Source: Paenibacillus xylanilyticus
GTDB lineage: Bacteria > Bacillota > Bacilli > Paenibacillales > Paenibacillaceae
Direction of reading: 5' to 3'
NCBI RefSeq assembly: GCF_009664365.1
Contig: NZ_CP044310.1
Coordinates: 817,001 to 881,000 of the forward strand
DNA: 64,000 nt
Shown here: positions 32,168-50,297 of the stretch, in pieces
How the letters are laid out: each line of letters starts with the position of its first letter
How positions within the stretch are numbered: the stretch's first letter is position 1
The notes under the pieces: model-generated
Databases searched by the model: none
What the model was told of the DNA's origin: nothing
Seen by the model: the letters and a program-made list of their open reading frames with translations, nothing else
Translations under genes and position numbers: made by a program

Positions 32168-32171
32168 GCTT

Positions 32172-33045: not shown

Positions 33046-33531
33046 TTAGTATTTCTCGATGAAATCCAACAAGGATTGTGCGATAAGGTCCTGGAGTCTG
33101 AAGTGAGGGAACTTCTCAACACAATTTTGGGTGAACCTTCCATAGATTTCTTCGTTCATTTTAATACTCTTTACTAAGAACTGTGAGTTTTTTGAATATA
33201 TCTTCTGATCCAAAACTAATATCGAATTATCATTTTTGTTTTTGACCAAGCTCCTCAACTTCTCTAAATTCTCCTTTAGAAAAATTAGTTCCTCCGAATC
33301 CACGATAGTTTGCTTTTTTGGAGGCATGCTGAATGGATCTCGTAAGAATTTGTAATAGCGGTTATCACGTTTAATAAAAACATAATCTCCAGCTTGCATG
33401 TCTTTGGTAAAGGTACTATAGCTGACCCCGATTTTTTCAGCGACCTCATCTAACGTAAATGACTGAAGTAATTTATTTACCTCCTCAGCTCTTTTATCGT
33501 GTTGCATAGTAAAGAATGTTTCTTTGTTCAT
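33046..33531 (-). CDS. Repressor-like DNA-binding protein, 161 residues
   Basis: AAAGGAG lies ten bases before ATG. Residues 20-45 (FTLDEVAEKIGVSYSTFTKDM) look like a helix-turn-helix and the C-terminal 40 residues (VKSIKMNEEIYGRF, then LQDLIAQSLLDFIEKY) like a ribbon-helix-helix domain. Two ATTC-N3-GAAT palindromes lie just upstream at its own promoter. It probably regulates itself and the divergent genes at 33873 onward. Confidence 0.6.
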   Translation of the reverse strand: MNKETFFTMQHDKRAEEVNKLLQSFTLDEVAEKIGVSYSTFTKDMQAGDYVFIKRDNRYYKFLRDPFSMPPKKQTIVDSEELIFLKENLEKLRSLVKNKNDNSILVLDQKIYSKNSQFLVKSIKMNEEIYGRFTQNCVEKFPHFRLQDLIAQSLLDFIEKY

Positions 33532-33571
33532 TAGTACAGCTCCTTTCTTTTTATATGATGATAGTATTATA

Positions 33572-33602
33572 GATTCGAAGAATCATATTATTCCGAGAAT
33601 AA
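33572..33602. promoter_or_regulatory. Paired palindromic operator candidate
   Basis: GATTCGAAGAATC (33572-33584) and TTATTCCGAGAATAA (33588-33602) share ATTC-N3-GAAT and lie 16 bases apart, beside a minus-strand TATAAT. The rest of the divergent region up to 33872 shows no gene. Confidence 0.5.
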
Positions 33603-33872
33603 GATTTAATACCGCTGTATGAATATGACAATGAAGTGCAAAGTAGTCGTTGCTTTGGTTGCCGCAGGTACATCTGCAAATATCCTAATGTTGACCTGAT
33701 TACATAGCTTATTCACTATTTTACATCCCTCCAATTAATCACTCGATGTACTCACACTCCAGAATTACCTTCTTTGTCAACCCCATTTTGCTCCGACCTG
33801 GTTCGAAGCTTATTGCCTCTCGGATAATTACTTTTTTCGTATTATAGGGAGAGAGTGATAGGGGGAATAAGT

Positions 33873-34667
33873 ATGATTCAAACGATCGGTTGTGAAATAA
33901 ATAGAGCCGAATACACGGTAGATTTAATTTATCTGCGAGATATGATTAGCGGTATTATCCAAGAAGGTGAAGGGTTACGTGAAGAGCTGAATCAAATTGT
34001 AAAGAGGTATGGCGTCCAGGTAGATCTTCGGTCTACAGAAGATGTCACTCGGTTTATTAAGTATGTGCTTAAAGCAGAGGTGGTTAAAGAAAAAAAATTA
34101 ACGAATGAAGCCTTGGACAGATGGTTTGAACAAACCAGGGACGTGTTTTTCATCAAGCTGAAACAGTATAGACGATGCCGTGAAAGATATCAAAAGATAG
34201 CTAAGTTTATCAAGACTCTTACAGTTGCTTTAGATGAATGGAGCAAAAACAGTGTAAAGGTCTTTATAAATTCGAGCTTGAAAAAGACAACTGTTAAACC
34301 TGTGTCCACAGTGAACAAGAATGGCGGTGTATCGATATCACAGCCTGCCTTGCCGTTTTCGATTACAGAGGTTGTAGGATTATTAAACTTCAATGTGGCG
34401 ATTCACTTCAAATCGAACGTTGAAATGGTAAGTTTTTTGAATATGTACGGCGACATTATATGGGAAGACGGCATGGGGAAGCATTTGCTGGTCAGTGGGG
34501 AGATATTATATGCCCAGATGATATTAAGCGAATACGAGATTATCCCGTTCTCGAACAGCGAGGATAAGATGAAACGATTGATTGAGCAGTTCAAACTGGA
34601 GTACAGCAATCCATTAGAAATATCACCAAAGACCATTATCAAAAATAAAAATAGCTCGCCATTATAA
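33873..34667 (+). CDS. Hypothetical protein, 264 residues
   Basis: ATG 33873 has AGGGGGAA upstream, preferred over GTG 33855. The N-terminal 130 residues are helical and basic; residues about 155-230 are alpha/beta (VVGLLNFNVAIHF, then SFLNMYGDIIWEDG). No family is recognised. It is followed by the helicase-like gene in the same direction, so the two may form one unit in the nested element. Confidence 0.55.
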   Translation: MIQTIGCEINRAEYTVDLIYLRDMISGIIQEGEGLREELNQIVKRYGVQVDLRSTEDVTRFIKYVLKAEVVKEKKLTNEALDRWFEQTRDVFFIKLKQYRRCRERYQKIAKFIKTLTVALDEWSKNSVKVFINSSLKKTTVKPVSTVNKNGGVSISQPALPFSITEVVGLLNFNVAIHFKSNVEMVSFLNMYGDIIWEDGMGKHLLVSGEILYAQMILSEYEIIPFSNSEDKMKRLIEQFKLEYSNPLEISPKTIIKNKNSSPL

Positions 34668-34781
34668 ATGCTAAGCAAGGGGCTTAGACGCTATAGAACC
34701 ATAAAGCCATATCCAGGCATTGCAATCTACTATATCCTCTTTATGCAACAGAACATAATGCATAAAGAAGGGGAGATATAA

Positions 34782-36503
34782 ATGAAAGTAAAAGAGAACT
34801 ACTTCAGTGAACTTTCTGAACAGATCACTAATAAAGAAAAATGGAGTCGGGAAAGGTTTGTGGTCTTTAATCATGAGGCTGGAACAGGCAAAAGCAGAAA
34901 TGCCCATCAGATAATCGGCGAGAAGACCAAAGATCTGGACCGTCGAGTTCTATACGTGCAACGCTTTATTAAGGATATTAAAGTAACTGTTGATTTTATT
35001 AATCAGCACGCTGGCAAGAAAGTGGCGGTAAGCTACACGAGTGAGGATACCAGAAAAGTGAAAGTGAAGGAGTTACTTATAAACCGTCAGGTTATTTGTA
35101 TCAGTCATCAAATGTACATTCAGATCTGTAAGGGAGAGCATCAATACTTGGTAAATGGTCGGGATATTTTAATTATCGATGAATATCCTGACTTACTTGA
35201 GAAGATCAAAATATCGAGTAGTGAAATAGGTCAGCTCTGGTTCGAGTGTAACAAATGGAATGTTCCTGAAATTGGTGAATGGGCATTAATACTACGTAAT
35301 TTGAAAGATGAAAAGTCTGCATGTACTCAAGAAATGAAATTCATGGATTTTTCTGAGAATAGGTTTAGGTTAGCCAAATTGATTAGATCAGCAATTGGTA
35401 GGATGAATGACAAGCGTACTGATGAATACAAGGGCATTTTGCAAAAAAGTATTCACCTGTTAGAGAATGGTGGATATTTGTTTGAGGATGGGTTCCACAC
35501 TTTTGATGGTAGTCATCAATATAGTCATTTAAAGAATAATATCATTCTCGATGCGAATGCGGCGTTCGATTATCGATATAAGCTATGTGATAAGTTTAAT
35601 GTCCGTGAGCAAGAGAAGATCTACGATTATGCAAAGGATACATTACATCACATACAAGTTAAAACGACTAAGAAGGGTATACAAAAATTCAGTGAGTTTG
35701 CTCAGGAAGTGTTGGGAAAACTTCAGATTGAGGGGAAAAATGGAATTCTATTTATTACAGAAAAGGCTAATGTTGAAAAGCTAAGAGATGAGATCGTGCA
35801 ATTCTTCTCCGAATATGGAAGTAGTATTGAAGAAATTGAAAGACGACTGAATTGTAAAATCGGCATCGACTATTTCGGGAATATTATAGGAGTTAATCAT
35901 TACCGTGAATATGATTGCGTTGTTCTGCTCAAAACCCCTCATTACGATTATCTCACTTATACTTCGACATACCACTTTTATAAGTGGATGAATCACCAAC
36001 CTGTCGATGATGTTAAATTGTTCAAGCATAAAGAGGTCGAGGCAATACGGAGAAGCACGGTGGCAGGTGAAATGTATCAGGCAATAAAACGGGTTAATCG
36101 GGACAATAGCAGACGCATGGACGTGTATGTTTTTACCGACTATCAAGAAGCGGTAGATTTAGTGATAGAGCAAATGCCGAATATTCAGTACAACAAAGAA
36201 GATCTTGGAGAAAAGCAGAATAGTGGGAGAAATTATGACAAAACGAAGAGAGAGAAATCCTCTAAAAGTGAAAAGGCTAAAACTATACTTCTCGAAGCTA
36301 AACAGAGTGGTATAGAAATGATGCAAAAGTTGGAGTTAAGGAACTTATTGGAGATAAAAAGTGGAGGGAATCTCACCAAGATACTGGATAAGTTGGAGGC
36401 TTTCATAAAAGAACACGGGATAAGTCACACTGGTCAGCAAATTTGGTTTCATGATAATTTGAGGGATCGTGATAATAAGGATGATCTCAATGAGTCTGCT
36501 TAA
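34782..36503 (+). CDS. Helicase-like P-loop ATPase, 573 residues
   Basis: Walker A EAGTGKSR lies near residues 29-36 and the DEAD-type Walker B ILIIDEYPD near 128-136, so it belongs to superfamily 2-like ATPases. A second half with GILFITEKANVEKLRDEI fits the RecA2 lobe. The C-terminal 90 residues are Lys/Glu-rich. ATG 34782 follows GGGGAGAT. It could drive replication or transposition of the nested element or act in defence; motif VI is not obvious. Confidence 0.65.
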   Translation: MKVKENYFSELSEQITNKEKWSRERFVVFNHEAGTGKSRNAHQIIGEKTKDLDRRVLYVQRFIKDIKVTVDFINQHAGKKVAVSYTSEDTRKVKVKELLINRQVICISHQMYIQICKGEHQYLVNGRDILIIDEYPDLLEKIKISSSEIGQLWFECNKWNVPEIGEWALILRNLKDEKSACTQEMKFMDFSENRFRLAKLIRSAIGRMNDKRTDEYKGILQKSIHLLENGGYLFEDGFHTFDGSHQYSHLKNNIILDANAAFDYRYKLCDKFNVREQEKIYDYAKDTLHHIQVKTTKKGIQKFSEFAQEVLGKLQIEGKNGILFITEKANVEKLRDEIVQFFSEYGSSIEEIERRLNCKIGIDYFGNIIGVNHYREYDCVVLLKTPHYDYLTYTSTYHFYKWMNHQPVDDVKLFKHKEVEAIRRSTVAGEMYQAIKRVNRDNSRRMDVYVFTDYQEAVDLVIEQMPNIQYNKEDLGEKQNSGRNYDKTKREKSSKSEKAKTILLEAKQSGIEMMQKLELRNLLEIKSGGNLTKILDKLEAFIKEHGISHTGQQIWFHDNLRDRDNKDDLNESA

Positions 36504-36899
36504 AGTATGGAGCGAGTACCTTGCCTGTGTTATGTACGCTACATTCTTGTTCTGAACGTTCGAGAACATTTATCCTGTTAATTGCGGCATTCTGAACAAA
36601 GATACGAAGCTGATATCTCCACCCAAAAGCAGATTTTAATTGAAACGATGGTTTTATCCTCTTCGATTTGATGCTTCAATTCTTATGGTTTTGGTTGCCA
36701 TAAGGCAACCGTATATATCAGTGGTTAATGCCTAACTCTTGAAGGAAAATCGTACTGCTATGATTGCATAATCAGTTCGTGATGCCAATTAATAAAAGTT
36801 GTATCAAAATTAGCCATTCCTCTTATATAGGAAGAATTAAATACAACTTTCTAAGTAAAACCCAATTGATGAAGCGGAAAACTCTGAGGATTAATAGAA
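36504..36899. other. Right subterminal region of the nested element
   Basis: It holds GGTTGCC-ATAA-GGCAACC (36693-36710), AAAAGTTGTATC at 36794-36805 and its inverted copy at 36841-36850, mirroring the left end. A cluster of GAAC/GTTC half-sites lies at 36549-36567. No gene is seen. Confidence 0.6.
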
Positions 36900-36922
36900 C
36901 GAACGTCCAGATACAACTTTTA
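36900..36922 (-). repeat. Right 23-bp terminal inverted repeat
   Basis: It is the exact reverse complement of 16670-16692. The outside flank is CTGTAGCA, which does not match the left flank, so no target duplication is visible. Confidence 0.8.
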
Positions 36923-37038
36923 CTGTAGCATAATTTATACTCGAACGGGGTACGACACAAAAAGCCTTTTTACGCATTGCAAAGAAAGATAGAGTATTGA
37001 TATCAACAAAAGAACTTACTACAGGGGGAATATAATCA

Positions 37039-37527
37039 ATGCTATCGGTTGGAACAATTATTGACGGAAGTGAAAACATGAAACCAGCAATTAGTTTGCA
37101 AGAAGCAAGAGAAACGATAAAGCACTATAAAATGGAGAAGCTCTTTGAACTTGCCTGGGAAGCGTACTCGAAGGAATGGGATCACGGCTATGCGTGGTTC
37201 GACCTTAAAAATGGGAAAGTAGTGAGCGGTCACGAACATCTCATCGATCCGAAGCATTCCTATCTGATATTGCTGAAAATAAGCGAGGCAGACTACCTTT
37301 TCGAATGGGACGATTATGATGAAGAATCCGAATACGAAAAGTTTAAGGAACGATTATCTTTACGTGAGTGGTGTGAATTAAAGGGATTTGATTATCGGGG
37401 ACGCATTAGGACGGAGGTATTGCGTGATCCAGGCAGGTGGAACGAATATCATCAGTTACATTCTAAGCTATATATTGGATTAAACGATTGGTATCGTAAG
37501 CATGATGTAACTGTTCAAACGGAGTAA
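37039..37527 (+). CDS. Hypothetical acidic protein, 162 residues
   Basis: ATG 37039 follows AGGGGGAATA; a second ATG at 37078 is possible. It contains many Trp, Tyr and acidic residues (LFEWDDYDEESEYEKF). No domain is recognised. It lies just outside the nested element. Confidence 0.5.
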   Translation: MLSVGTIIDGSENMKPAISLQEARETIKHYKMEKLFELAWEAYSKEWDHGYAWFDLKNGKVVSGHEHLIDPKHSYLILLKISEADYLFEWDDYDEESEYEKFKERLSLREWCELKGFDYRGRIRTEVLRDPGRWNEYHQLHSKLYIGLNDWYRKHDVTVQTE

Positions 37528-37572
37528 TCTACACAAAATTATCAAGTCGATAATAAAGCAAGGAATGAGCAA

Positions 37573-37974
37573 TTGGGAGAATCAAAGGAGAAAGCTTTTT
37601 TTTTAAGGGATTTCAAGACATTGATCTTGTACAAAAAGGCTGTAGAGCTGGAGGATATGATTGATAAATTAGCTGAGTCCTTTCCAATTGATGAGAAGTA
37701 TCGCTTAACTGATCAGTTGATTCGATGTGTTACAAGTATCGGTGCAAACGTTGCGGAGTCAAATGGCGGTCAGTATGCTGGCAGGGAGAAATACCATTTA
37801 GGCGTTGCCTTCCAATCTGCAAACGAGGTTAGATACTGGGTTGAACGGGCGTTTCGGAAGAAGTACATTGATAAAATAACGTATGAGCGGCTGGATGAAA
37901 TGGCACAAGAGCTGAGAAGAATAATGGTCGGGATGTTCAAACGCTTAGATGGTTTAAATGGTGAATCGGTTTAA
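37573..37974 (+). CDS. Four-helix-bundle protein (S23/IVS type), 133 residues
   Basis: FRDFKTLILYKKAVELEDMI, then RLTDQLIRCVTSIGANVAESN, then KYHLGVAFQSANEVRYWVERA follow the pattern of the 23S-intervening-sequence/four-helix-bundle family, whose members include the Avd partner of diversity-generating retroelements. No reverse transcriptase is present in this window. It starts at TTG 37573; a nine-T run at codons 8-11 could slip. Its role is unknown. Confidence 0.8.
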   Translation: MGESKEKAFFLRDFKTLILYKKAVELEDMIDKLAESFPIDEKYRLTDQLIRCVTSIGANVAESNGGQYAGREKYHLGVAFQSANEVRYWVERAFRKKYIDKITYERLDEMAQELRRIMVGMFKRLDGLNGESV

Positions 37975-38208
37975 AACAATGCAAGAACCATGGAGGGGAT
38001 TACTTCCATGGCATACATAGATCTATTCATTTTGTCCAGAGTTTGATGTGAACGGTGGTGGTAGATTAAAAGATTGTCATAGAAGTTACTGACCATCTTT
38101 TATTAAGAGCGATCAACATTTCAATATTGGACAGGCAACTCCGCCAGCAATTGGACAATAATTGCGACAGATTCTGATAAATAAATGTCCGATTATTTTA
38201 TCTATCCA

Positions 38209-38427
38209 TCACTCGAAGCAATCGGATAATCGTTCCTCGAAATACTCATCTTCATGATCCGCACCTTCTCTATAATTCTCGCTTAACTGAACGTTATTGT
38301 CGTCATCTATGCAAAAAAGGCACACGCAATGAGTATTAACATAAATCCGAACCCCTGTTACCTCGGAAATTAGTACCTTTATTTTCTTGCCCTCACCATT
38401 GCATGGAATTTCGCATACATTCATCAT
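38209..38427 (-). CDS. Hypothetical small protein, 72 residues
   Basis: AGAGGAG lies upstream of ATG ATG 38427. A Cys/Val-rich strand region (IYVNTHCVCLFCIDDD) precedes an acidic tail. It is unrecognised. Confidence 0.5.
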   Translation of the reverse strand: MMNVCEIPCNGEGKKIKVLISEVTGVRIYVNTHCVCLFCIDDDNNVQLSENYREGADHEDEYFEERLSDCFE

Positions 38428-38574
38428 CTGTAAATTCTCCTCTTCTGACTTTTCCCAATACTGTTACCTTTCAAACTCCGATGAGAATATGCGTTCCCAT
38501 TCGCTTGGAGATAGTATAATCGACATTTTTTAGATTGGCAACAGACTGTTTTCATAAGGTGGGTATTATTCAAA

Positions 38575-38704
38575 TTCACACGTTATGTTGATTGTGCTAT
38601 ACTGATGTCAAAATTCATTTGTAAAAGTATAGGTACATCATCTAAGGTATTGGACTGGTAAAAAAAACCAGACGCATTGCCTGAAGAGTGAAGTATCTCT
38701 TTTT
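38575..38704 (+). ncRNA. Possible small RNA with its own promoter
   Basis: TTCACA-17-TATACT (38575-38603) is followed by about 100 bases without a coding frame, an internal hairpin CTGGT/ACCAG (38655-38671) and a weak AGAG/CTCT stem with TTTTT at 38701. The stretch from 38428 to 39060 holds no gene, so a short untranslated RNA is the best reading, with low certainty. Confidence 0.3.
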
Positions 38705-39060
38705 GTTGTCTAATAGGAAATTTAACAGATTAGGATGGTGAGATGCCCAGTGTGAAGGCAGTCTGAGAAGTCGAGCTGATTGAAAAGTGGTCTAAATAAG
38801 TTATGTACCGAGTTTTGTTTGGCTTAATTGATTTTTCGAAACGAAGGAATGCGGCTTCATAGATTTTGAAATGAGAGACTCTCTACAGAATTGATAATTA
38901 TGTTAAAAGTGACCCTAAAGTCATGGATCGCTTTTATTCGTTAATTTGTTCTGAAAATTTGTTGTAATAGTTTGACTGTACGATCATAGTCTGCCCTCAT
39001 TATACTTTAATTAAATTCATGCAAGAGAACGGAGAGAATGCGTGATCCTCTCCGAACACT

Positions 39061-39597
39061 TTAGTTGAAAAAGTCCTCAGCTTGTTTCCGATGTTCATCC
39101 GTGATATGGGTGTTTATGCTATTGAACGCTACCCAGAAAGCGGCGGCATCGTCAGTGTACCCAAGAATCAAGATGAAATCAGGAATTAAATCAATTGGAA
39201 GTACAACATATGCTAACGCACCAATAGCAATTGCTTTTGCTTTCATAGGTGTTTTAATATCGATCGCACAGTAATACATAGCTAATGCATCTTTGGCAAA
39301 GGGGATTTTTGATGCATGTTTTTTTAATTTTTTCAGAAAATTATCTTTAACATACTTTTCTTGCTCATTTGAATCGCCAATTTCTGCTATCCAAGTTTTC
39401 GTGTCAATTTTTTTATCTTTAGAATAGGCGTGGTCTGTTGCTAATGCAGTAGCTAATTCTTGTTCTGACTTATATACACTTAGTTCTACATCCTCACTAA
39501 ATTTGGATTTGCATGTACCGCAGATTGCTTGTACAAAACTTTCAGTATCGATGTTATTGATTTGACCACAATTTTGACACTCCATTTGTCTAATCAA
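39061..39597 (-). CDS. Zinc-ribbon DUF1232 (YkvA-like) membrane protein, 178 residues
   Basis: The N-terminus has CQNCGQ and CGTCKSK, a zinc ribbon. Residues 115-165 carry the YkvA/DUF1232 signature YVVLPIDLIPDFILILGYTDD with a hydrophobic helix. A TTG start at 39597 follows AAAGGGG. It lies 64 bases behind the dynamin-like gene on the same strand and is probably its partner. DUF1232 proteins are small membrane proteins of unknown role. Confidence 0.75.
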   Translation of the reverse strand: MIRQMECQNCGQINNIDTESFVQAICGTCKSKFSEDVELSVYKSEQELATALATDHAYSKDKKIDTKTWIAEIGDSNEQEKYVKDNFLKKLKKHASKIPFAKDALAMYYCAIDIKTPMKAKAIAIGALAYVVLPIDLIPDFILILGYTDDAAAFWVAFNSINTHITDEHRKQAEDFFN

Positions 39598-39661
39598 CGT
39601 ATATTATCCCCTTTAAAATGATGATGGAATCTAAAATTAATAAGAGAGAATATGAAGTCTG

Positions 39662-41914
39662 TTATATTGACATTGACATGTTTTGAGTAGGTAATGCCTT
39701 TAAATTTTCACTGCCTTCCCAGGGGAGTTGTCCGAAAAAATCTTCTAAGCCTTTATTTATTGTAATCATATCTTCAATTGTTCGTGGATCACTGGTTTCA
39801 ATAATCGTTTTCAAGTTATCCAAGTGTTCTTCAATTTTTTGCAGAATTCCTGCGACAACTTCATTTAACCCAATCTTACTATCATCCCAAAACTTAGTGA
39901 TTGCATCCGAATAAGAGTTAATAACCTTTTCCTTTTCCAGAGTTTTAATCACTTCTTTTGCCAACCTTTTTTTCCAACCATCACCAAAGAGAGATGTAAC
40001 AATTGCAAATGCTCCAATAGCTAATGCTATACCAATAGTAATTGGCCCTCCAATCATTGCTACGAAAGAAGCCGCCGCCGCAGTTCCACCTACTGAAATT
40101 CCTAAAGCGCTCAGTAAGCTGACACCTTTTGCAACAAGAATATATCCACCAAGGTTTCCAACAGTTGCCGCCCATAATCCTAATCCACCAAGTACACTTG
40201 CTCCAGCGATTCCTCCTGCGAGTGCACCTTTAAAATCAAAGGGTATTTGAACGTTACCGACAGATATTTTACTCAATGAATTTGCTTTCTTCTCAACATC
40301 TTTAAAAAATTGAGTCAACATGGTGTTGAACTCTGAGGCACTGCCTTTAAGTATCTCCTGCATCTTTGCATAATAAAGATCAGAGATGTTGGAGAGAAGA
40401 TACTCTTTAGCCTGTTTTTTATCGTAGTTTTTCTCATTTATTAAATTTATAATGTATTTTTCGGTGATGGTCTCCTTTTCCCAAAGTTTTATTTCGAGTG
40501 TGTTGCTTTTTTGGGACTTATCAATGAACGAGATAAGCTGGTTTCGAAGGGCGTTTATCTCCTCGAACTTTTGAGGCTTTTCTCGAATGGCTTTCTCATA
40601 CTCCTTTTTGGAGTTTTCACGGTCTCGCAAAATGGTCTCATATTTTTGGACTTCATTTGCAAATAAGGTGCGAGATTCATCTTTAAAATCCTCAATAGCT
40701 TGGTTTAATCTTGCCTTTCGAATAGTAGGTAATGAATTCACAAGCAATTCTCTGAATGCATTTTCAAATTCTTCACGGAGAACTGGGGTATCAAGTGAGT
40801 ACGAGAAAAATCTTGTTTTAAATATTTCAACAAATTCTCTTTTACTAACATTAAAGATTTGTTTAATCAATTCGTCAGAGAGTTGCTCTGAAAAAGCAAT
40901 GGATCTTGTTTCTAATACTTGTGGAATTTTTTCAGGACCTACAACATGTGACTGAGAAGCTATTACAAATAAATTTGAAAGCAACGGAACTTCTTTTGTG
41001 TTCAAAACTGGCAATGTGCGGATTACATCTTTTAGGAACAAAATATCAGATTGCTTATTTAAGAAACTGTTGCTCTGGCATAAGAACAAAACAATATCTG
41101 CCTCGTCTTTAGCCCTTTGCGCTCTAACCGTATCATCCATTTCTTCAGTTCCGAAGCCTGGAAGATCAACAATGTCGCAAGACAGTAAGATGTTTGAATC
41201 TAAATAAACGACAGCGGAATCCACCTCTTTATGAAGTTTGTTTGAGTTTCTATTACAGTATTTTTCTAATATATCGTAGTTTCCTACGTGCAGTGCATGA
41301 TTCCTGCAATACTCTATATCATGAATTCTTCTGAAATTCCAGCCTTTGTCATGAGCTTCTGCTTTGAAAATACTAACATGGTTTTCACCCATCCAAGCTG
41401 GTTTGTCATTAATATGTTTCACGTAGACGGTTGATGACGTTGTCGGTGTCCATTGAGACAAAAGCGCATCAATTCCTGTGAGGCTATTGATCATTGTGCT
41501 TTTCCCAGCATCAGATGGACCGAGCAAAGCAACGAGGGGTTTTGCTCCGTAAATGTTAATTAAATCATCTAATTCAGATATTTTCTTAATAGCCGTCTGA
41601 TATTCAGGTTTTTCCTTGAAAAGTTCCACTGTTGGAGCTATGTAATATTTTAAGGCGTTTTTCTTTAAGCTCTCTTCTCCATAAACATTAGGAATATCAA
41701 GGGCTTTAGGTTGTTCTAATTTAAAATTACTCAAAACATCGTTTGGTAGCATGCGAGCTACACTGCACAGATTCATAAAGAATTCGAGTGACATGTTTCC
41801 AGGATTACTTTCCATTCTGGAGATATAGTCTTGTCCGCATTGAAGAGCAGAAGCAAGTTCAGCTTGGGTGTATCCTAACTTTTCTCTAAGACCTTTTAGA
41901 TCAAAATCTTTCAT
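39662..41914 (-). CDS. HTH-dynamin-like GTPase fusion, 750 residues
   Basis: Residues 1-60 form an XRE-type helix-turn-helix (LGYTQAELASALQCGQDYI). A dynamin-type GTPase domain follows: G1 GPSDAGKST at 132-140, a G2 threonine in TPTTSSTVYV, and G3 DLPGFG at 250-255; a classical NKxD is not obvious. Coiled helices fill 430-540, and a glycine-rich hydrophobic segment at about 561-645 could enter membranes. AAAGGCG precedes ATG. Joining a DNA-binding head to a membrane-remodelling GTPase is unusual and suggests a stress or phage-sensing effector. Confidence 0.8.
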   Translation of the reverse strand: MKDFDLKGLREKLGYTQAELASALQCGQDYISRMESNPGNMSLEFFMNLCSVARMLPNDVLSNFKLEQPKALDIPNVYGEESLKKNALKYYIAPTVELFKEKPEYQTAIKKISELDDLINIYGAKPLVALLGPSDAGKSTMINSLTGIDALLSQWTPTTSSTVYVKHINDKPAWMGENHVSIFKAEAHDKGWNFRRIHDIEYCRNHALHVGNYDILEKYCNRNSNKLHKEVDSAVVYLDSNILLSCDIVDLPGFGTEEMDDTVRAQRAKDEADIVLFLCQSNSFLNKQSDILFLKDVIRTLPVLNTKEVPLLSNLFVIASQSHVVGPEKIPQVLETRSIAFSEQLSDELIKQIFNVSKREFVEIFKTRFFSYSLDTPVLREEFENAFRELLVNSLPTIRKARLNQAIEDFKDESRTLFANEVQKYETILRDRENSKKEYEKAIREKPQKFEEINALRNQLISFIDKSQKSNTLEIKLWEKETITEKYIINLINEKNYDKKQAKEYLLSNISDLYYAKMQEILKGSASEFNTMLTQFFKDVEKKANSLSKISVGNVQIPFDFKGALAGGIAGASVLGGLGLWAATVGNLGGYILVAKGVSLLSALGISVGGTAAAASFVAMIGGPITIGIALAIGAFAIVTSLFGDGWKKRLAKEVIKTLEKEKVINSYSDAITKFWDDSKIGLNEVVAGILQKIEEHLDNLKTIIETSDPRTIEDMITINKGLEDFFGQLPWEGSENLKALPTQNMSMSI

Positions 41915-41954
41915 TTAAGCACGCCTTTCTACTGGGAAATTTATGTACAAGATA

Positions 41955-41983
41955 TTTATACCATATTGCTTTTTAGATGTAAA
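41955..41983 (-). promoter_or_regulatory. Promoter of the HTH-dynamin gene
   Basis: On the minus strand TTTACA and TATAAA are 17 bases apart. TGGAT-N8-ATCCA immediately upstream (41987-42004) is a possible operator for the protein's own HTH domain. Confidence 0.6.
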
Positions 41984-42202
41984 TATTGGATATGCAAAAA
42001 TCCATATTATAATGTACGAATAACGAAAAAAGGGATGCATCAAGACATATTTGATTGAATGGTCAGGTATCCCTGTTGATGCGAAATGCCGAATCGAAGT
42101 GATTACTTGGCAAAATGATCGAACCTTACTTAATCTGATTAAGAAAACCTTATAATCCTATAAAATAGGGATTTATAAAATTAGCCAAAAACAACTTGGC
42201 CA

Positions 42203-42232
42203 TTGAATCTTCTTCAAGGGTCCTGATACAAT
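42203..42232 (+). promoter_or_regulatory. Promoter of the recombinase-tns transcript
   Basis: TTGAAT and TACAAT are 18 bases apart, about 100 bases ahead of the tyrosine recombinase gene. Confidence 0.5.
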
Positions 42233-42264
42233 AGTTTTATATGATTGGAATTTTTTGAGGGTGC

Positions 42265-42289
42265 GAGTCGATCTTATCAAGATTGACTC
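42265..42289. repeat. Inverted repeat upstream of the recombinase
   Basis: GAGTCGATCTT and AAGATTGACTC are 11-base arms with one G-U and a 3-base centre. No T run follows, so it is not a good terminator. It may be an operator or part of a recombination site for the adjacent tyrosine recombinase. Confidence 0.45.
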
Positions 42290-42337
42290 TTGACCTTCCT
42301 GACTTTTAATAAAGCGGGGCAGTGAGGATGAGGACGA

Positions 42338-42907
42338 ATGAAGATGGTTTACCCGATCCGAGATAAAAAACAAATCGAGCTTGTAAAGAGTTATCTAAAG
42401 TCAAAGAGTCTGAGAAATTATCTTATGTTTCAAGTCGGCATATCGTCAGCCCTTCGCATATCAGATATTTTGAGTCTTAAAGTGAAGCATGTATGGAACA
42501 ACAAGCGGCCTTCCGAATTTATTGAAGTAAATGAGAAAAAGACAGGGAAGTACAAAAGGTTTCCTGTAGCACCCAATCTTGCGAAAGCAATTAAAGAATA
42601 TGCCGCTGTGTATGACATGAGCGATTCAGAGTTATATCTGTTTCGAAGCAGAAAAGGAGAAAATAAGCCGATCACCAGGCAACAAGCTCGGGATATATTA
42701 GATCATGCTTGTGATATGTGCGGAATTCCCGATAAGTTCGGGAGCCACGGTCTTCGGAAGACCTGGGGATACTTCGCATTCAAACAGGGCATTTCGTTGG
42801 ACTATATTTCTATAGCTCTAAACCATAGATCAATTGCTGAAACCAAACGATACCTTGGTTTACTTCAAGAAGATCTGGATGATATTTATTTTCAGATCAA
42901 TTTATAA
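42338..42907 (+). CDS. Minimal tyrosine recombinase, 189 residues
   Basis: All catalytic residues are readable: Arg40 in ALRIS, Lys71/73, His137 and Arg140 in HGLRKT, His163 in LNHRS, and Tyr172. The protein is only the catalytic domain; the usual N-terminal arm-binding domain is missing. It lies 178 bases before tnsA on the same strand. By analogy with resolvases such as TnpI it could resolve cointegrates made by the tns genes, or act on an attachment site. ATG 42338 follows GAGGATGAGGA. Confidence 0.85.
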   Translation: MKMVYPIRDKKQIELVKSYLKSKSLRNYLMFQVGISSALRISDILSLKVKHVWNNKRPSEFIEVNEKKTGKYKRFPVAPNLAKAIKEYAAVYDMSDSELYLFRSRKGENKPITRQQARDILDHACDMCGIPDKFGSHGLRKTWGYFAFKQGISLDYISIALNHRSIAETKRYLGLLQEDLDDIYFQINL

Positions 42908-43085
42908 TAGTGTACAAGTTATTAAAATCACTTCATGTTCGTGTGCTTCAATAAATTCATATGCAATCAGTGATAAAGCATTGGATATAGGTTGTGCCGC
43001 AAAAAAAAGCGGACTAATTGCCTATAATACCAATGCTTTTTTGCATTGCATGTTAGGCAATGACCTGCTACTTGGAGGTAAGATT

Positions 43086-43880
43086 GTGAGCAACTGGAAC
43101 AAGGAAAAGCTTGGGAGATATATAAACGAAGGAAGGGGACAGGGCGAAAAATCCTGCTATATCCCGTTGACTAAAACCCATGAGTTCTCTTCAAAAGGCA
43201 GAGCATCAAGGATATTTGGAATCAAGACTCAACGTATACACCATTTTCACTCTGACAATCAGTTAAGGGCATTCCATATGTATGAATGGGTAAATGATAA
43301 CGTGGTTGATATAAGGGAATGTTTCCCCTTATTGGACGTTATGGAGGTTATTGATGATAAAGATAATCTACGATTTGATAAATTTCGTGATAAAGAGTCT
43401 GGGGAGCAGTTGGTGCTGACAACCAGTTTCCTTTTAACAAGTAGGGACTCGGATGGAAAAGAGCGATATCTCGCAAGATCAATAAAAGATTCATCTGAAT
43501 TAATAAGGAAAATTACTTTAGAAAAGCTTGAGATAGAAAATCGGTATTGGAAAGCCAAAGGGATTGACTGGAAGATAACTACAGATAAACAGCTATCGAG
43601 GCAATTAGCCAAGAATATCGAGTGGGTTAGAGAGACATTATTATCGAACGAACAACAGGATATTAATAAAGATCAGCTTTCGGATGATTTACTGAATCAT
43701 CTTCTAATCAATCCTGATTCAGCAATACGAGATAGTTTAAGGGACTTCGATAACAAGGCGGGAGTTTCTAATGGTGTTGCTCTTTACTTGTTCCGATATC
43801 TAATAGCCAAGAAAGAGATCAATATTGATATGAGAAATAAAATCGATACAGCATCAAGAATTACTGACCTAATGCTGTGA
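43086..43880 (+). CDS. tnsA: Tn7-like TnsA with substituted catalytic residues, 264 residues
   Basis: GTG 43086 after GGAGG gives the typical start SNWNKEKLGRYINEGRGQG; the family then shows KGRASRI, RIHHFHSD, DIRE and a C-terminal KLEIENRYWKAKGIDW. In Tn7, Glu63, Asp114 and Lys132 form the endonuclease site that cuts the 5' ends. Here the aligned residues are Gln59 (CAG 43260-43262), Ser114 (AGT 43425-43427) and Lys134. Two of the three are lost while the fold-defining parts remain, so the protein may only bridge TnsB and TnsC. It ends 13 bases before tnsB. Confidence 0.9.
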   Translation: MSNWNKEKLGRYINEGRGQGEKSCYIPLTKTHEFSSKGRASRIFGIKTQRIHHFHSDNQLRAFHMYEWVNDNVVDIRECFPLLDVMEVIDDKDNLRFDKFRDKESGEQLVLTTSFLLTSRDSDGKERYLARSIKDSSELIRKITLEKLEIENRYWKAKGIDWKITTDKQLSRQLAKNIEWVRETLLSNEQQDINKDQLSDDLLNHLLINPDSAIRDSLRDFDNKAGVSNGVALYLFRYLIAKKEINIDMRNKIDTASRITDLML

Positions 43881-43893
43881 CTGGGGGATACCT

Positions 43894-46026
43894 GTGAAAT
43901 TCATGACGAATATGTTGTTTAGGTATGGAGACGGCAAAGTAATAAGAGTGCTCTATATTAACCGTGTTTCTTCTATTATATATGTGATCGATATGGCGAG
44001 TAATAGATGGGCATATCCTCTTAGGTTAGATGATTTGAGGATTCTTCAAGAGCAATCAGAAATTATAATGCTGGAAGAAGACATTTATTGCAGAGTTTTC
44101 TTTGAAGAGGATTTAAGCGAAGCGGAAAAAATGAAAAGGGAACACGACTGGGAGATCGTACAATATTTACTGAATTGTCTTGAAGCTGAGGAGAATTTGT
44201 ACATCAGTAAATATAGAGAAAAAGCATTAAAGGAAGCGATGCAGATATTTCAGTTAAGTTATAACGGTGTAAAAAACTTACTTATTCGCTATTGGCATGG
44301 AGCACAGACTAAAAATAGCCTATTGCCAAGCTACCATAGATGCGGAGCTAAGCAAAGGGATAGAAAGAGTAGTAATAAAAAACGTGGGAAACCACGCAAT
44401 GATGAAAAGAGCATCGGTGTAAATGTTGACGATAATATGAAAAAGTTATTTAAGGTGGCGCTCAATCGTTATTACTACTCCGAACGGAATAATTCATTAA
44501 AAATAACGTATGAGTTGATGCTCAGGGATTCTTTTGTTAAAGAGAAAGTTGAACACAATGGTATTAACTTGCCTGTACTATTAGACAAATCCAAAATGCC
44601 AACATATCAACAGTTTTTGTACTGGTTCAAGAAAATGAATAATGCCAAAATGGAGATCTCGAAAAGAAGTGGAACCAGGGCATATCAGCAAAATTATAGA
44701 ACAATTATTGGGGACTCAACGCAAGATGCTGGCGGAGCTTGCGGCTCTTTATGGCAAATTGATAGCACATTATTCGATATATACCTCGTGTCCAGCGTCT
44801 CCAGGGACATCACAGTTGGTCGTCCGATCGTTTTCTTGGTGATAGATGTGTACTCCCGCCTCATAATGGGGGTCAATATTAGTTATGAATCATTAAATTC
44901 ATATAGTGGTGCTATGGTTGCACTTGCGAATAGTATGTCATCTAAGAAAGAGTTTGCTTCAAGGTATGGTATAAGCATAGAAGATGAGGAGTGGCCATAC
45001 TGTGTTCCACTCCGTGTAATGGCAGATCGTGGAGAACTGGTTGGCAAACAGATTGAGAATGCAATTCAAGGCTTGGGGATTACAATACAAAACAGCCCAC
45101 CTTACCATGCAGATTATAAAGGAATCATTGAGTCAGCATTTTCAGTATTGAATTCGAGAGTCAAGCCTTTTGCTGATGGGGTTGTAATCAATGGGAAAGG
45201 AAATAAAGAGAGAGGTGAATCCGATTATCGTTTAAAGGCGAATTTAACGATTGAGGATTTTTGTAAAATTGTAATAAAATGTGTGTTATTTCACAATAAA
45301 AACCACGTGCTAACTGATTACGTGTTAGATGAGTCCATGTTGGAAGAGAAAATTGAAAAGATACCCCTTCAAATTTGGAATCATGGAGTAAAGAATAGAA
45401 AGGGGCAATTGAGGCTTTTACCAGAAGAAATGATTAAGACACATCTTTTCCCGATGGATAAGGCTACTGTTACTGCCAGAGGAGTTTCTTATAAGAAGAT
45501 GTTGTATGCTTCAGGTTACACATTAAAAAATGATTGGTTTCAGAAGGCACGAATAAATGGTAGCTGGCGAGTAAACATTTGCTACGATCCACGGGATTTA
45601 ACAAATATCTACGTGAGGGATGAGGGAGAGGAGGGCTTACTTAAACTGACACTATTGGATCACCTAACGAAATATGCAAATAAGGGAATTGAAGAGATAG
45701 AGAAGATTGCAACACATGAACAAAAAATCGACGAGAAGAGCAAGGAGAGAGAATTGCAGGAAAAGGTCCAGCTTTTCACAGAAATTGAGCACATCGTTGA
45801 GAATGCCAAAAGAAAAACTGATTCCGAAAAAGATTATGGTAAGAGTAAGACACAGCGATTATCTGGTATTAAGGAAAACCAACGAAATGAGCGTTTGTTG
45901 CATCGGGCAAGTGAATCTAAAGAAACATCAATTGTTGAAACAATCACTGTTCATGAATCAAATGATGACATCGATGACTTACACTTGTTTTTCAATAATG
46001 AAGATGGTGATTACGATGAAGAATAA
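43894..46026 (+). CDS. tnsB: Tn7-like transposase TnsB, 710 residues
   Basis: The DDE integrase core is intact: Asp290 in WQIDST, Asp378 in MADRGEL and Glu413 in KGIIESAF, with the classic 35-residue spacing. N-terminal DNA-binding domains precede it, and a charged C-terminal tail of about 120 residues is the expected TnsC-contact region. TnsB joins the 3' transposon ends to the target and would bind the motif arrays at 262-336 and 709-869. GTG 43894 follows GGGGGAT. It overlaps tnsC by 11 bases. Confidence 0.93.
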   Translation: MKFMTNMLFRYGDGKVIRVLYINRVSSIIYVIDMASNRWAYPLRLDDLRILQEQSEIIMLEEDIYCRVFFEEDLSEAEKMKREHDWEIVQYLLNCLEAEENLYISKYREKALKEAMQIFQLSYNGVKNLLIRYWHGAQTKNSLLPSYHRCGAKQRDRKSSNKKRGKPRNDEKSIGVNVDDNMKKLFKVALNRYYYSERNNSLKITYELMLRDSFVKEKVEHNGINLPVLLDKSKMPTYQQFLYWFKKMNNAKMEISKRSGTRAYQQNYRTIIGDSTQDAGGACGSLWQIDSTLFDIYLVSSVSRDITVGRPIVFLVIDVYSRLIMGVNISYESLNSYSGAMVALANSMSSKKEFASRYGISIEDEEWPYCVPLRVMADRGELVGKQIENAIQGLGITIQNSPPYHADYKGIIESAFSVLNSRVKPFADGVVINGKGNKERGESDYRLKANLTIEDFCKIVIKCVLFHNKNHVLTDYVLDESMLEEKIEKIPLQIWNHGVKNRKGQLRLLPEEMIKTHLFPMDKATVTARGVSYKKMLYASGYTLKNDWFQKARINGSWRVNICYDPRDLTNIYVRDEGEEGLLKLTLLDHLTKYANKGIEEIEKIATHEQKIDEKSKERELQEKVQLFTEIEHIVENAKRKTDSEKDYGKSKTQRLSGIKENQRNERLLHRASESKETSIVETITVHESNDDIDDLHLFFNNEDGDYDEE

Positions 46027-47503
46027 AATTTACCTACCGAATGGGACGGAAGCTCAGGAAGCTTGTTACAGTGAATTTCCAATTGAAGAATACAATACAA
46101 ACCCTTTTATTCAGGCGTTACCACCTATAGCTGATAAGAAGACCATTATTAAGAAGTTAATGACGATTCCAACATTTAAAGAAGTGGAACGTGAGTTGGA
46201 TAGCTCTTATAGAATGCATATTGTTAAACGATTGTATAAGCTTTTTCAGCCCTTGCCGCAACATGTCCGAATTTGGAATATGGTATTTTCGCTTGTATTC
46301 CAGGGATACTTGGCGAGGAATCCATTTGATAAGGAGTACATTAGATATGTGAATGCAACAGGTAAGCAAATAATCAATAGAACGTATGATTTAAGCAATA
46401 AAACGGATTTTAGAACAACAGCCAATTGTGGGCTTTTGATTGGTTATTCAGGCATGGGGAAAACAACAACTATGAATAAAATCCTCAATAATATTCCTTC
46501 GGTTATTGTTCATGATACGTATCGGGGTCAGCATTATAACCAAACGCAATTGGTGCACATTACTTTACAGACCCCGCATAATTCGAGTTTAAAAGCATTA
46601 TCACTTCAGTTTTTTATGAAAGTAGATGAGATACTCGGAACAAACAATTTTAAGAAATATGTCTCACGAAATTTAAGTGTAGATGCTATGCTCCCGCTAA
46701 TGGGGATTGTATCGCAAAATATAGGGCTGGGTTTAATGGTAATTGACGAGGTGCAACATTTACAAAACCGTGGTGTTCTACAAATGATGAATTATTTTGT
46801 TACGATGATGAATTCGTTCGGAGTCCCTGTAATCTTCATTGGTACGCCAGCTTCATATCCCATTTTTCAAAACGAGCTGAGGATAGCAAGAAGAGTAACG
46901 GGAAGTGGTGAAATCATCTGGAACAACATGGGGAATGACAATGAATTTCGTCTGTTTTTGGAGTCAGTTTGGAAATATCAATGGAATCGAAAATTTACGC
47001 CTTTGAGCGAAGAGCTGATCCAGATCTTTTATGAAGAGACGCAGGGGATATCAGACCTCATCATCAAGTTGTTTGTAAATGTTCAGCAAATGGCAATTTA
47101 TAGTGGGAAAGAAGAAATTACGATAGAAATTGTGAAAAGGACGGTCAAAGAAAGCTTTAAAATGATGAAGCCTATGTTGGATGCATTAAGATCAGGGAAT
47201 CCCTACAAGATCGCTAAATATGAGGATTTGAGAAGATTAGAAGAGACACATAATAAGAAAACCGAGAGGGTAGAACAGCCAGTAAAAATAATAAAAAAGG
47301 AGATAATTAAGGGAAATCAGATGGTAAATCTATTGACCGTCTCAAATAATCCAAAGCAAAAAATACAGCGGGATTATACGGATGATGATATTAGGCAAGT
47401 TTACATTAAAGCAAATAAATTAGGTGTTTCGCCGTATCAACTTCTCTTAGAGAAAGGATATATCGATGAGATGAGCTTTGGGCAAGGGGATGATTTCTTA
47501 TGA
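46016..47503 (+). CDS. tnsC: Tn7-like AAA+ regulator TnsC, 495 residues
   Basis: Walker A GYSGMGKTT lies at residues 143-151 and Walker B VIDEVQH with Asp244; FIGTPAS fits sensor I. TnsC links target-bound TniQ/TnsD to the TnsAB transposase. ATG 46016 lies inside the end of tnsB, and the stop overlaps the tniQ start by four bases, so the set is translationally coupled. The protein has no internal defect. Confidence 0.93.
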   Translation: MKNKIYLPNGTEAQEACYSEFPIEEYNTNPFIQALPPIADKKTIIKKLMTIPTFKEVERELDSSYRMHIVKRLYKLFQPLPQHVRIWNMVFSLVFQGYLARNPFDKEYIRYVNATGKQIINRTYDLSNKTDFRTTANCGLLIGYSGMGKTTTMNKILNNIPSVIVHDTYRGQHYNQTQLVHITLQTPHNSSLKALSLQFFMKVDEILGTNNFKKYVSRNLSVDAMLPLMGIVSQNIGLGLMVIDEVQHLQNRGVLQMMNYFVTMMNSFGVPVIFIGTPASYPIFQNELRIARRVTGSGEIIWNNMGNDNEFRLFLESVWKYQWNRKFTPLSEELIQIFYEETQGISDLIIKLFVNVQQMAIYSGKEEITIEIVKRTVKESFKMMKPMLDALRSGNPYKIAKYEDLRRLEETHNKKTERVEQPVKIIKKEIIKGNQMVNLLTVSNNPKQKIQRDYTDDDIRQVYIKANKLGVSPYQLLLEKGYIDEMSFGQGDDFL

Positions 47504-49017
47504 TGAATTTTCTACCCCGCTTACATCAAGATGAACTGCTCTATAGCGTAATAGCCCGATACAAAAGAATGTGTGGAATGGTAAGCAAAATTGCATTAGT
47601 CAGAGACTTGTATGACGAAAAAACTGTATTTAAATCAACGTTATTTCCACAACATTTGAATAAGCTGATAGCTAATTTTCCCTATAATTCAAAAATTGGG
47701 GTGAACGAGCTTATCAATAATCATACTCCGTTTAATTTCTACACTGCCTTTTTATCCAGTCAGCTTACGGAAACAATATCAGATGGAATGATAAATGGTA
47801 AAGGAACAGGCATCGAAGCTTTAGTTGGTATCGCAGGTAGTAGAGTGAAATTAAACGATCATCTGAAAGTGTGTCCCGCCTGTCTTGTAGAGGATGTGGA
47901 AAGCTTAGGTGAAGGTTTTTGGAAGAGATCCCATCAAATTGTCGGAGCATTGTTTTGCTTAAAACATGAAGTTCCTTTAGTAAATAGTAAAGTTGGAAGC
48001 TCTGATAACATTGTTGATTTTATTTGTGCGGATGAGGATGTCTACGACACTGAAAATAGTTTACCCGTTATTTACTCAGCAGAGATTAAGAAGCTTAATT
48101 TAAGCTACCTTCGAAACGTTTCATATTTACTGAATGTTAATCAGAAGAGAAAGAACCTCTCTTTCATTATTGATTATTATATCGATCGTTTGAGGGAGAA
48201 AGGTTTTGCTTCAAAAAGCGGCAACTTATACATTACTGAATTGGTTGAAGTTTTTGGTAGTTTTTATCCTACTGAATACTTAGAGCTTATGCAAAGCACG
48301 ATAGATATTAAAAGCGAGACGAATTGGTTGAGGCTTTTTGTCAGAAATAACAATAAGAACAGAAGTCCGTTGAGACATCTCTTATTGTTACAGTTTTTAG
48401 GTTTAGATGTCTCGGAGCTATTTGATTGGAATTCAACAATTGGAAAGATCACGATTAAGTCTAATCGGAAGCCGAAGTATGAGTTGAGCGAACGAAAAAG
48501 CGAATGGTTAAAGCTGATTAATGAAAATCAGGGTGCTACGAGGGCTGAGCTGAAAGAGAAGGGAAAAGGGCTTCATACTTGGATTTTTGCTCACGATAGA
48601 GTGTGGTATGAAGATGTAACACCCAGGATTAAAGCAAGAAAAAATAAGAGAGCGGCAATTGATTGGAATCAAAGAGACGAAGAGTGTTTAAAGCTTGCAA
48701 AGAAGGCTGTCAAAGGAATTTTGAGCTTTGATGGAAAACCAATTAGGATTATTCCAGCTAACATCAGGAGAGCGGCGGGAGTTAAGAAGTGGTTTCTCCA
48801 TAAAAAACTTAATAAGACATGGCAGTATATAGAGGAAGTAAGTGAGGATATAAACAGCTATCGTATCAGAAAAATTAATTGGGCTATATCTGAATTAATG
48901 AGGAAGCATGGAAAGGCAACTGCATACCAAGTTCAGTTGTATGCTGGATTCGGAGGGAAGAATGACGAAGTAAGAAAGATCATTAATGAAGTTCTTGAGA
49001 GTAATAGAGATATATAA
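47500..49017 (+). CDS. tniQ: TniQ/TnsD target-selector, 505 residues
   Basis: The TniQ start (LPRLHQDELLYSVIARY) is followed by a zinc site with Cys125, Cys128, Cys153 and His156 (CPAC and CLKH). The length of 505 is that of a TnsD-type protein with a C-terminal DNA-binding half, not of a short TniQ. It probably recognises the chromosomal target; the position of the island implies the rlmD 3' end. It is the last gene of the tns operon, before a strong bidirectional terminator. Confidence 0.9.
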   Translation: MMNFLPRLHQDELLYSVIARYKRMCGMVSKIALVRDLYDEKTVFKSTLFPQHLNKLIANFPYNSKIGVNELINNHTPFNFYTAFLSSQLTETISDGMINGKGTGIEALVGIAGSRVKLNDHLKVCPACLVEDVESLGEGFWKRSHQIVGALFCLKHEVPLVNSKVGSSDNIVDFICADEDVYDTENSLPVIYSAEIKKLNLSYLRNVSYLLNVNQKRKNLSFIIDYYIDRLREKGFASKSGNLYITELVEVFGSFYPTEYLELMQSTIDIKSETNWLRLFVRNNNKNRSPLRHLLLLQFLGLDVSELFDWNSTIGKITIKSNRKPKYELSERKSEWLKLINENQGATRAELKEKGKGLHTWIFAHDRVWYEDVTPRIKARKNKRAAIDWNQRDEECLKLAKKAVKGILSFDGKPIRIIPANIRRAAGVKKWFLHKKLNKTWQYIEEVSEDINSYRIRKINWAISELMRKHGKATAYQVQLYAGFGGKNDEVRKIINEVLESNRDI

Positions 49018-49075
49018 TGCAGTCAGCGATTGCTTAACTTAAATACTTAGCACCGTTACTTCATTATCGACTTTT

Positions 49076-49117
49076 GATTATAATAAACCCACCATCACTG
49101 GTGAGTTTATTATAATC
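49076..49117. terminator. Bidirectional terminator after tniQ
   Basis: GATTATAATAAAC...CACC and its mirror GGTG...GTTTATTATAATC form a nearly perfect 42-base inverted repeat that works for tniQ and for the minus-strand gene that ends at 49154. Confidence 0.8.
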
Positions 49118-49153
49118 AGTATCGTTAACAACATTGATTAAAATTGTTTCTCA

Positions 49154-49525
49154 TTAGTGCACGAGTAGTTTTAATCTGGTCCAATAACATTGATCTTCGA
49201 AAAACTCAATTAGCATTTTTCGCTGTTCTTTGTCGTTTATTTTATTTTCCACTTCTGCAGGTATATCAGGGTGAAGTGAATAAATACTTTCTATGTAATA
49301 ACCTTCATCGTCGCTTTTTATTAACTTCATTCTAAAATTGTATGTTTCATCATCTGTGCACTTTAGTCCAAATTTAAATTCAAACATGCGATCTTGCTCA
49401 ATTTGCGTTGGTTCATTTAATGTACCGATCTTTACTACATTAGATCTGTTTTTTAATAACTTTTTTAAATTTTCAATTTTTAAATCATTTAAAAGAACTT
49501 CATAAATACCGTCATCTTCATACAT
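49154..49525 (-). CDS. Hypothetical protein, 123 residues
   Basis: ATG 49525 has GGAGG 12 bases before it; a GTG at 49543 is in frame. It is a small alpha/beta protein with an acidic start, and no family is recognised. It is the last gene before the second 608-bp copy, so it could be a passenger of the element end. Confidence 0.5.
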   Translation of the reverse strand: MYEDDGIYEVLLNDLKIENLKKLLKNRSNVVKIGTLNEPTQIEQDRMFEFKFGLKCTDDETYNFRMKLIKSDDEGYYIESIYSLHPDIPAEVENKINDKEQRKMLIEFFEDQCYWTRLKLLVH

Positions 49526-49689
49526 GTAAAGTCCTCCACTCAAAACTCGGAATTTTTCTCTTAATAATCTTAACCAATATTGAGAAAAATTTAAAGTATT
49601 TTTATGAATTCCGTTTATCTATCCCTCCTGTACCCTTTCCAATTACTATAGAGATAACAGAGCCAAAACATAAAACCAATCCCCTACTA

Positions 49690-50297
49690 TGTAACTCCAT
49701 AATATACCCGTGCTATTCGTAATAAACTCGTGCTAAAAATCGAATAAAGACGTGATAAATCGTTGGGGGATAGAGGTGTGGGCATCCATTTATGTCTCCA
49801 ACCGTCCTATAATTGTAACGACGAAGCCGAGCGGAAATCAGGATCTTCCCCTGATCATCGCTTGGCTTTTCTTTTCCCCAGGCTCGCTTTCTACGAAGCC
49901 TCAGATGCCATCTAATCCTTTCTTCAGGCTCTTCTTCCTGCATATAAAATAACTGCAATGCCGCATCAGACCTGCATTTCTCAGGCTTCTCCTCGCTCTT
50001 TTTCTCCCGCTTTAAATGCTTCCCAGATCTCTCTCCGCATCTATAATCAGCTCATTACCTGGCTTTGTTTCCTGCTTGCAGTAGTCCTTGAACTGTCCCT
50101 AATCCCTATCTTTTTCCCTTGCCTTTCCCTTGCACTGTTGTCACGACATTATTCAGATTATAATAAAGTTGTGATACAAAAAGTTGAGTCAAAAGTGGAG
50201 AAAAATACGGTTTTTTAGCATGACTTTATTTATGAGGGCAACGGTGGAATGCGGGTTTGAGGGCTGTTTTTTAGCAGGAGTTTATTCATACTGAACA
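49690..50297 (+). mobile_element. 608-bp miniature Tn7-like element, right copy
   Basis: It is identical in reading to 262-869, with TGT and ACA tips and the same six motif copies. The inner flank CCCCTACTA is an inverted match to TAGTAGGG at 870. The outer flank is the native terminator of rlmD. Two direct copies around the cargo allow loss of the island by recombination. Confidence 0.78.

Follow-up and report, generated by a model that had tools for sequence, protein, structure and literature searches.

A Tn7-like lineage of Bacillota with a putative pseudo-nuclease TnsA and both transposon ends in flanking cassettes

Tn7 carrying the TnsA exchange D114A reportedly forms cointegrates instead of simple insertions, a mutant also cited in PMC8649781. 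For TnsA D90A of a Tn7-like CAST, PMC8188705 reports vector backbone between duplicated mini-transposons in >95% of reads. Among natural elements, replicative transposition was predicted where tnsA is absent and a resolvase is present (Benler 2021, PMC8649781), and the presence of tnsA in transposons outside two replicative branches was taken there as not supporting a replicative role of their serine resolvases. The section concerned mentions neither catalytically dead TnsA nor duplicated end cassettes. Likewise, we found no account of a natural lineage with dead TnsA, or of the cassette layout described below, in the open-access literature, subscription papers and supplements being outside the scope of this search. 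Here, we describe a window, meaning the whole analysed stretch of 64,000 nucleotides, in which TnsA, TnsB, TnsC and a TnsD/TniQ-type protein are encoded in one operon, as in Tn7-like elements (Table 1).

TnsA without its catalytic acids

The tnsA product matches Pfam families PF08722 (1.6e-16) and PF08721 (1.2e-14) and the Tn7 TnsA structures 1f1z/1t0f (E 3e-31). Judging by eye, the initial annotation had placed Gln and Ser where Tn7 TnsA has Glu63 and Asp114, and HMMER alignment to Tn7 TnsA bears this out (Gln59, codon 43260-43262; Ser114, codon 43425-43427). The fold and the catalytic Lys, Tn7 Lys132, are retained as it had stated, the latter as Lys134, and the residues of the cut-and-paste enzyme, Glu63/Asp114/Lys132, thus read Gln/Ser/Lys in the window. 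Gln130 of Tn7 TnsA, two residues before the Lys, has a catalytic role; the Ser found there in the window is uninformative, since most intact relatives have Thr or Ser at this place too. The TnsB triad, also described earlier as intact, is indeed complete in the window and in all 29 of 29 aligned TnsBs.

Loss of the acids extends well beyond the window. In an alignment of 121 rows, comprising the window and 120 listed of 645 matches, the Glu place holds Gln (113), Met (6), Asn (1) or Ile (1) and the Asp place Asn (97), Ser (22) or Thr (2), with no Glu or Asp at these places among the matches listed, and Lys is retained in 118 of the 121 rows. Because both acids are absent in 121/121 rows, their loss is more than chance. 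The check proposed with the initial annotation, whether close relatives carry a different set of acids instead, found no acid at either place among the listed relatives, one of which (P0002, 98%) is probably the protein of the window itself. Close relatives were not found on plasmids, where all 497 records had <60% identity and the three inspected were Glu-Asp-Lys, nor in phages and viral contigs.

A second set was obtained by reducing 112 TnsA ORF rows to 69 Bacillota TnsAs that are no shorter than 215 aa, have TnsB downstream and differ from one another in their last 200 residues. Glu-Asp-Lys is present in 39 of these, and Asp is absent from 30 (Q-N-K in 13, Q-S-K in 7, Q-T-K in 4, E-T-K in 5 and E-T-R in 1), which form one clade on the tree (support 100/98) and are referred to here as dead TnsAs. 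The loss thus marks an old lineage, clade-wide, and the state of the whole clade rules out one recent mutation or a sequencing error in a single copy. As Asp is gone throughout the clade (30/30), whereas Glu is lost in 24/30 and remains in 6, the residues suggest that Asp was lost before Glu.

The dN/dS between tnsA relatives was 0.076-0.096 in seven of seven pairs, with synonymous sites near saturation, and 0.031-0.096 in the nuclease domain of dead TnsAs, with dS near 1 or more; these ratios are rough, and with this roughness they rule out that tnsA is a pseudogene. Since the dead nuclease domain is under purifying selection, TnsA appears to be kept for something besides cutting, which fits a retained structural role; the initial annotation had predicted a bridge to TnsC.

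Table 1. Features of the window element and of comparable small ORFs (positions in the window unless a locus is named)
Feature	Position	Strand	Remarks
rlmD (rumA) 3' end, insertion target	1..274	+	frame extends 12 bases into cassette
Left end cassette LR1	262..869	+	TGT...ACA; 608 bp, 100% identical to 49690-50297
End-like sites in LR1	293, 784, 840	+, -, -	
Backbone between cassettes	870..49689	+	48,820 bp; begins TAGTAG, ends CTACTA; similar flanks in most relatives
BREX operon, cargo	19080..32167	+	brxA/brxC/brxL tested
brxA	19080-19679	+	PF08849 3e-57
brxC	20268-23834	+	BrxC domains
brxL	30113-32167	+	PF13337 2.5e-147
Small protein upstream of recombinase	37573-37974		also L018 7826-8665, L026 1824-2036, L027 7812-8237, L030 8279-8944
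Short tyrosine recombinase, candidate resolvase	42338..42907	+	189 aa; PF00589 1.7e-23
tnsA	43086..43880	+	GTG start, 264 aa; Gln59 and Ser114 replace catalytic Glu and Asp; Lys134 kept
tnsB, DDE transposase	43894..46026	+	PF09299; triad D290, D378, E413
tnsC, AAA+ ATPase	46016..47503	+	PF13401 5.4e-17, PF05621 4.7e-10
tniQ/tnsD target selector	47500..49017	+	PF15978 3.8e-40, PF06527 3.1e-19
Right end cassette LR2	49690..50297	+	orientation as LR1; then chromosomal flank

End cassettes, target site and recombinase

Inverted end-like sites gave 7 matches in the window, with 0.03 expected. Six lie within LR1 and LR2, and the seventh, at 61723 with 1 mismatch, is the sole end site outside both cassettes. 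Both transposon ends sit in each 608-bp cassette, and the tns genes and the BREX cargo, which presumably has brxB, pglX and pglZ between its tested genes, lie outside those ends; only the outermost ends enclose machinery and cargo as a single left-right pair. Repeated inverted end sites, as expected of a Tn7-like element, are clear in the window and only partly recognisable in other cassettes, and a simple pattern found no reverse-strand end site in 2/9 cassettes. The cassettes differ in their middle part. That of the window (335-692) has ~314 extra bases relative to the 294-bp P. vini cassette and overlaps an 86-aa ORF; other cassettes carry a hairpin-like GGGGAAA...TTTCCCC stretch there, followed by T's.

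Direct repeats of 293-608 bp with 98.7-100% identity surround the element in 8 of the 11 regions with dead TnsA, window included, and in 0 of 14 regions with intact TnsA, for which a repeat of at least 290 bp and at least 98% identity was demanded. Besides the window, they were found in A. soli (463 bp), C. kochii (340 bp), P. glycinis (293 bp), G022 (499 bp), G584 (505 bp), P. acanthi (474 bp, 98.7%) and N. citreus (344 bp, 98.8%). G584, known as two pieces only, has tandem cassettes, and its outer flanks lie within an older, diverged cassette. In A. mengziensis, with two operons, no flanking repeat was found around either element in 160 kb, although a left end may lie outside, and the right ends have diverged tandem cassettes only. 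The P. xylanilyticus region comes from a contig that starts and stops inside cassettes, and O. chungangensis has no flanking repeat within 40 kb. These three were left out of the Fisher test, which used 8/8 vs 0/14. The best direct repeats among the controls were 114 bp at 95.6% (G032) and 339 bp at 86.7% and 121 bp at 85% (both G448). Conventional inverted ends were recognised in 3/14 controls (G260, G193, G267), with one weak match in 2 more; in those three, end sites immediately before tnsA and further ones 18-25 kb downstream of it give the conventional layout. Cassettes are near-identical within an element and divergent between elements, the window and P. vini sharing 81-89% over the alignable parts.

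The target of the window element was identified as rlmD by its profile (L011, 8523-10274; TIGR00479, E 6.6e-168), a test made for the window only. By protein motif, the left flank encodes the C-terminus of rlmD in 6 of the 8 regions with repeats (window, A. soli, C. kochii, P. glycinis, P. acanthi and N. citreus). Outside the cassettes, a 5-bp duplication is present in 5/8 (A. soli TGTGT, C. kochii ATATA, P. acanthi GCAAT, G022 GGATG, G584 CCAAG). The outer flanks of the window (AGTGG vs GCTAA) and of P. glycinis show no matching duplication, and those of N. citreus agree by 4 bases only, out of register. Inner flanks are conserved in 6/7, with CTACTA or a near form before the right cassette and TAGT(AG) after the left; G022 differs. 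In this element, whose TnsA is E-T-K, the left outer flank places the insertion at the end of a gene other than rlmD, which we take to encode a SpoU-type RNA methyltransferase, and the target thus seems to vary within the clade.

Further rlmD sites were found empty (G003), with a single cassette and no TnsA match (G020, without a 5-bp duplication), or with two cassettes and no TnsA match (G213). The G213 cassettes (L258, 1153-10044) are 8.65 kb apart without tns genes, each preceded by rlmD-end-like sequence, and are perhaps stacked decayed or non-autonomous elements. Additional cassettes abut the right side directly in A. soli and G022. In A. salilacus, GAAAA separates a pair of cassettes. 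These extra cassettes are layers of older insertions. The match at 61723-61761 of the window (39 bp, 85% like the cassette left end) has counterparts of 32-40 bp once each in many genomes of the genus, in G003 at the same distance from the rlmD site (~11.4 kb) as in the window, and is either an old end remnant or an unrelated conserved site.

A recombinase gene lies at most 0.7 kb upstream of tnsA on the same strand in 27/30 loci with dead TnsA vs 0/39 with intact TnsA, a contrast whose weak point is that the recombinase profiles were built from dead-TnsA loci, and whose Fisher value (3.6e-16) is too strong since the rows are related. Across a gap of this size another small ORF may intervene, and the 27 include two truncated genes (L004, 86 aa; L019, 160 aa). 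The gene occupies the same place in 18/18 relatives of the genome_contigs set, and Pfam confirms a recombinase in 19/19 (these relatives and the window), 14 of the tyrosine and 5 of the serine type, the family having switched about 5 times on the TnsA tree. For 59 ORFs that precede the 39 intact tnsA genes, no recombinase family appears among the 25 of 35 Pfam families shown, the other 10 being single-member families; 12 of the 59 ORFs encode SIS (glmS-like) proteins. The counts of 27/30 and 0/39 rule out the recombinase as a chance neighbour. The three exceptions are A. soli (L087), with a serine recombinase of 209 aa ~2 kb upstream on the opposite strand; G022, in whose 80 kb no recombinase was found although the cassette repeat is present; and G085 (L100), for which 1.5 kb is covered.

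Searches of the cassettes and of the region upstream of the recombinase gene for a recombination site found none, and in 4/4 elements the two share no 11-base word. The window and P. vini have similar cassettes although their recombinase families differ. Since the family changes while the cassette stays alike, and no such word is shared, the recombinase may act on something other than the cassettes. Beside it, on the other strand of the window (39061-41914), are genes for a 750-aa HTH-dynamin-like GTPase and for a DUF1232 protein, perhaps a defence module; L017 has an HTH-dynamin-like GTPase gene at the same place. Several elements encode small proteins of one apparent kind upstream of the recombinase (Table 1), presumably akin to the '23S rRNA-intervening sequence' family of four-helix bundles.

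Cassette transposition and alternative explanations

The expectation that this element copies itself instead of being cut and pasted is supported by the recombinase association and the cassette repeats, two features predicted for a replicative mode that accompany the loss of the acids, as far as sequence can indicate it. The initial annotation had overlooked the recombinase, the 608-bp repeats, the position of both ends together outside the tns genes and the age of the lineage. We consider it probable that the integrated Tn7-like element in the window belongs to a Bacillota lineage with a pseudo-nuclease TnsA and that its cassette moves by replicative transposition, carrying the backbone with it. 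The unit of TnsB would be the small LR cassette of about 240-610 bp, whose left and right ends point inwards, with recombinase, tnsA, tnsB, tnsC, tniQ and cargo outside it. TniQ would steer insertion to the rlmD 3' end, and TnsB, by analogy with its family, would nick and join the 3' ends of LR, with TnsA unable to cut the 5' strands. Copying through LR would then yield a cointegrate LR-backbone-LR as the resident form. Recombination of LR with LR, by host or element, could free the backbone as a circle that retains one LR, the other staying behind as a solo copy; either the free circle would come first, or a donor-target cointegrate would later be recombined between cassettes. A functional TnsA would excise the empty cassette alone, and because cutting would part cassette from cargo, TnsA would have had to lose catalysis, probably being retained for a structural function in the complex. 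Each integration would make two new identical copies, which would explain why cassettes are identical within and divergent between elements.

We are evenly divided on the more far-reaching claim of an integration mode for which the literature searched has no precedent among Tn7-like elements: the actual transposon would be a nearly empty end-cassette with machinery and cargo outside it, the cointegrate a stable resident form, TnsA a pseudo-enzyme, and the solo cassettes scars of excision resembling solo LTRs. Cassette transposition is further favoured by the outer duplications in 5/8, the near-confinement of end sites in the window to the two cassettes, the P. xylanilyticus contig with both termini inside a cassette, and the solo cassette of G020. 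Several observations count against it: no free circle or transposition product was seen, the flanks of the window and P. glycinis are mismatched and those of N. citreus out of register, A. mengziensis and O. chungangensis show no flanking repeats in the 160 and 40 kb covered, the G020 cassette lacks a duplication, the recombinase may not act on the cassettes, and none was found in the 80 kb of G022.

The main rival explanation is a classical replicative transposon, as in Tn3/Tn5053, in which the outermost ends, those at the left of LR1 and at the right of LR2, are used, all 50 kb are copied, the recombinase next to tnsA resolves the donor-target cointegrate at a site close to its own gene, and the inner ends are passengers. 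This accounts better for the recombinase, both for its association with dead TnsA and for its exchange between families while the cassette remained unchanged, and it fits the outer 5-bp duplications equally well. It accounts worse for the cassettes, leaving unexplained why two near-identical copies occur in 8/11 regions, why the inner ends have not decayed and why the inner flanks are conserved, and we regard it as unlikely, if a serious contender. The tnsA-less cassettes at rlmD ends in G020 and G213 invite another explanation, in which the cassette acts as an attachment site: an older insertion would have left a solo cassette at rlmD, and an incoming circle would recombine with it, either site-specifically or homologously. 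This would permit outer flanks that do not match, as seen in the window, but the outer duplications in 5/8 mark transposition, the cassette sequence does not track the recombinase family, and no recombinase was found in G022 despite its repeat, all of which makes such an entry improbable. Even less credible is that the element is still cut and pasted, with TnsA cutting through a rearranged site or another nuclease cutting the 5' strands. The retained Lys and fold and the strong constraint on the nuclease domain would suit an active enzyme, but the clade lacks Asp throughout and mostly Glu, the operon from tnsA to tniQ contains no extra gene in the 15/18 relatives in which it is complete, and cutting predicts neither the recombinase nor the duplicated cassettes.

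If cassette transposition is correct, a laboratory trick, killing TnsA to obtain cointegrates, would have become a natural evolved strategy, with an enzyme selected after losing its chemistry. This would alter boundary calling for such elements, with both ends together and the cargo outside, as well as the reading of tnsA-bearing elements with resolvases. It would also offer naturally cointegrating systems for studies of large-DNA integration, and it opens the question of the roles of TnsA besides cutting.

Relation to known systems

IS26 forms translocatable units, circles with one small element that integrate replicatively and give direct repeats around the cargo. In IS26, the transposase gene is inside the repeated element, whereas in the window the repeat consists of ends only, the machinery lies outside it and the target is the rlmD end. 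Tn5053-type and other tnsA-less Tn7-like elements share with the window clade TnsB-, TnsC- and TniQ-type proteins, a serine or tyrosine resolvase and a predicted replicative pathway, and by Pfam the window element likewise has a candidate site-specific recombinase of its own; Tn5053-type elements have no tnsA, whereas the window clade has a tnsA that is present, conserved and dead. Type V-K CASTs also lack TnsA activity and form cointegrates, but they are RNA-guided and without tnsA gene or resolvase, unlike the window clade (PMC8188705, PMC11406308). Closest in layout are the Tn7 and CAST TnsA mutants, in which TnsA catalysis is lost, TnsB remains active and the backbone comes to lie between duplicated mini-transposons. 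The LR-backbone-LR arrangement matches this cointegrate product. The mutants are laboratory constructs with an artificial mini-transposon, whereas the window clade is a natural lineage with that layout, in which the machinery occupies the place of the vector backbone in the CAST D90A product.
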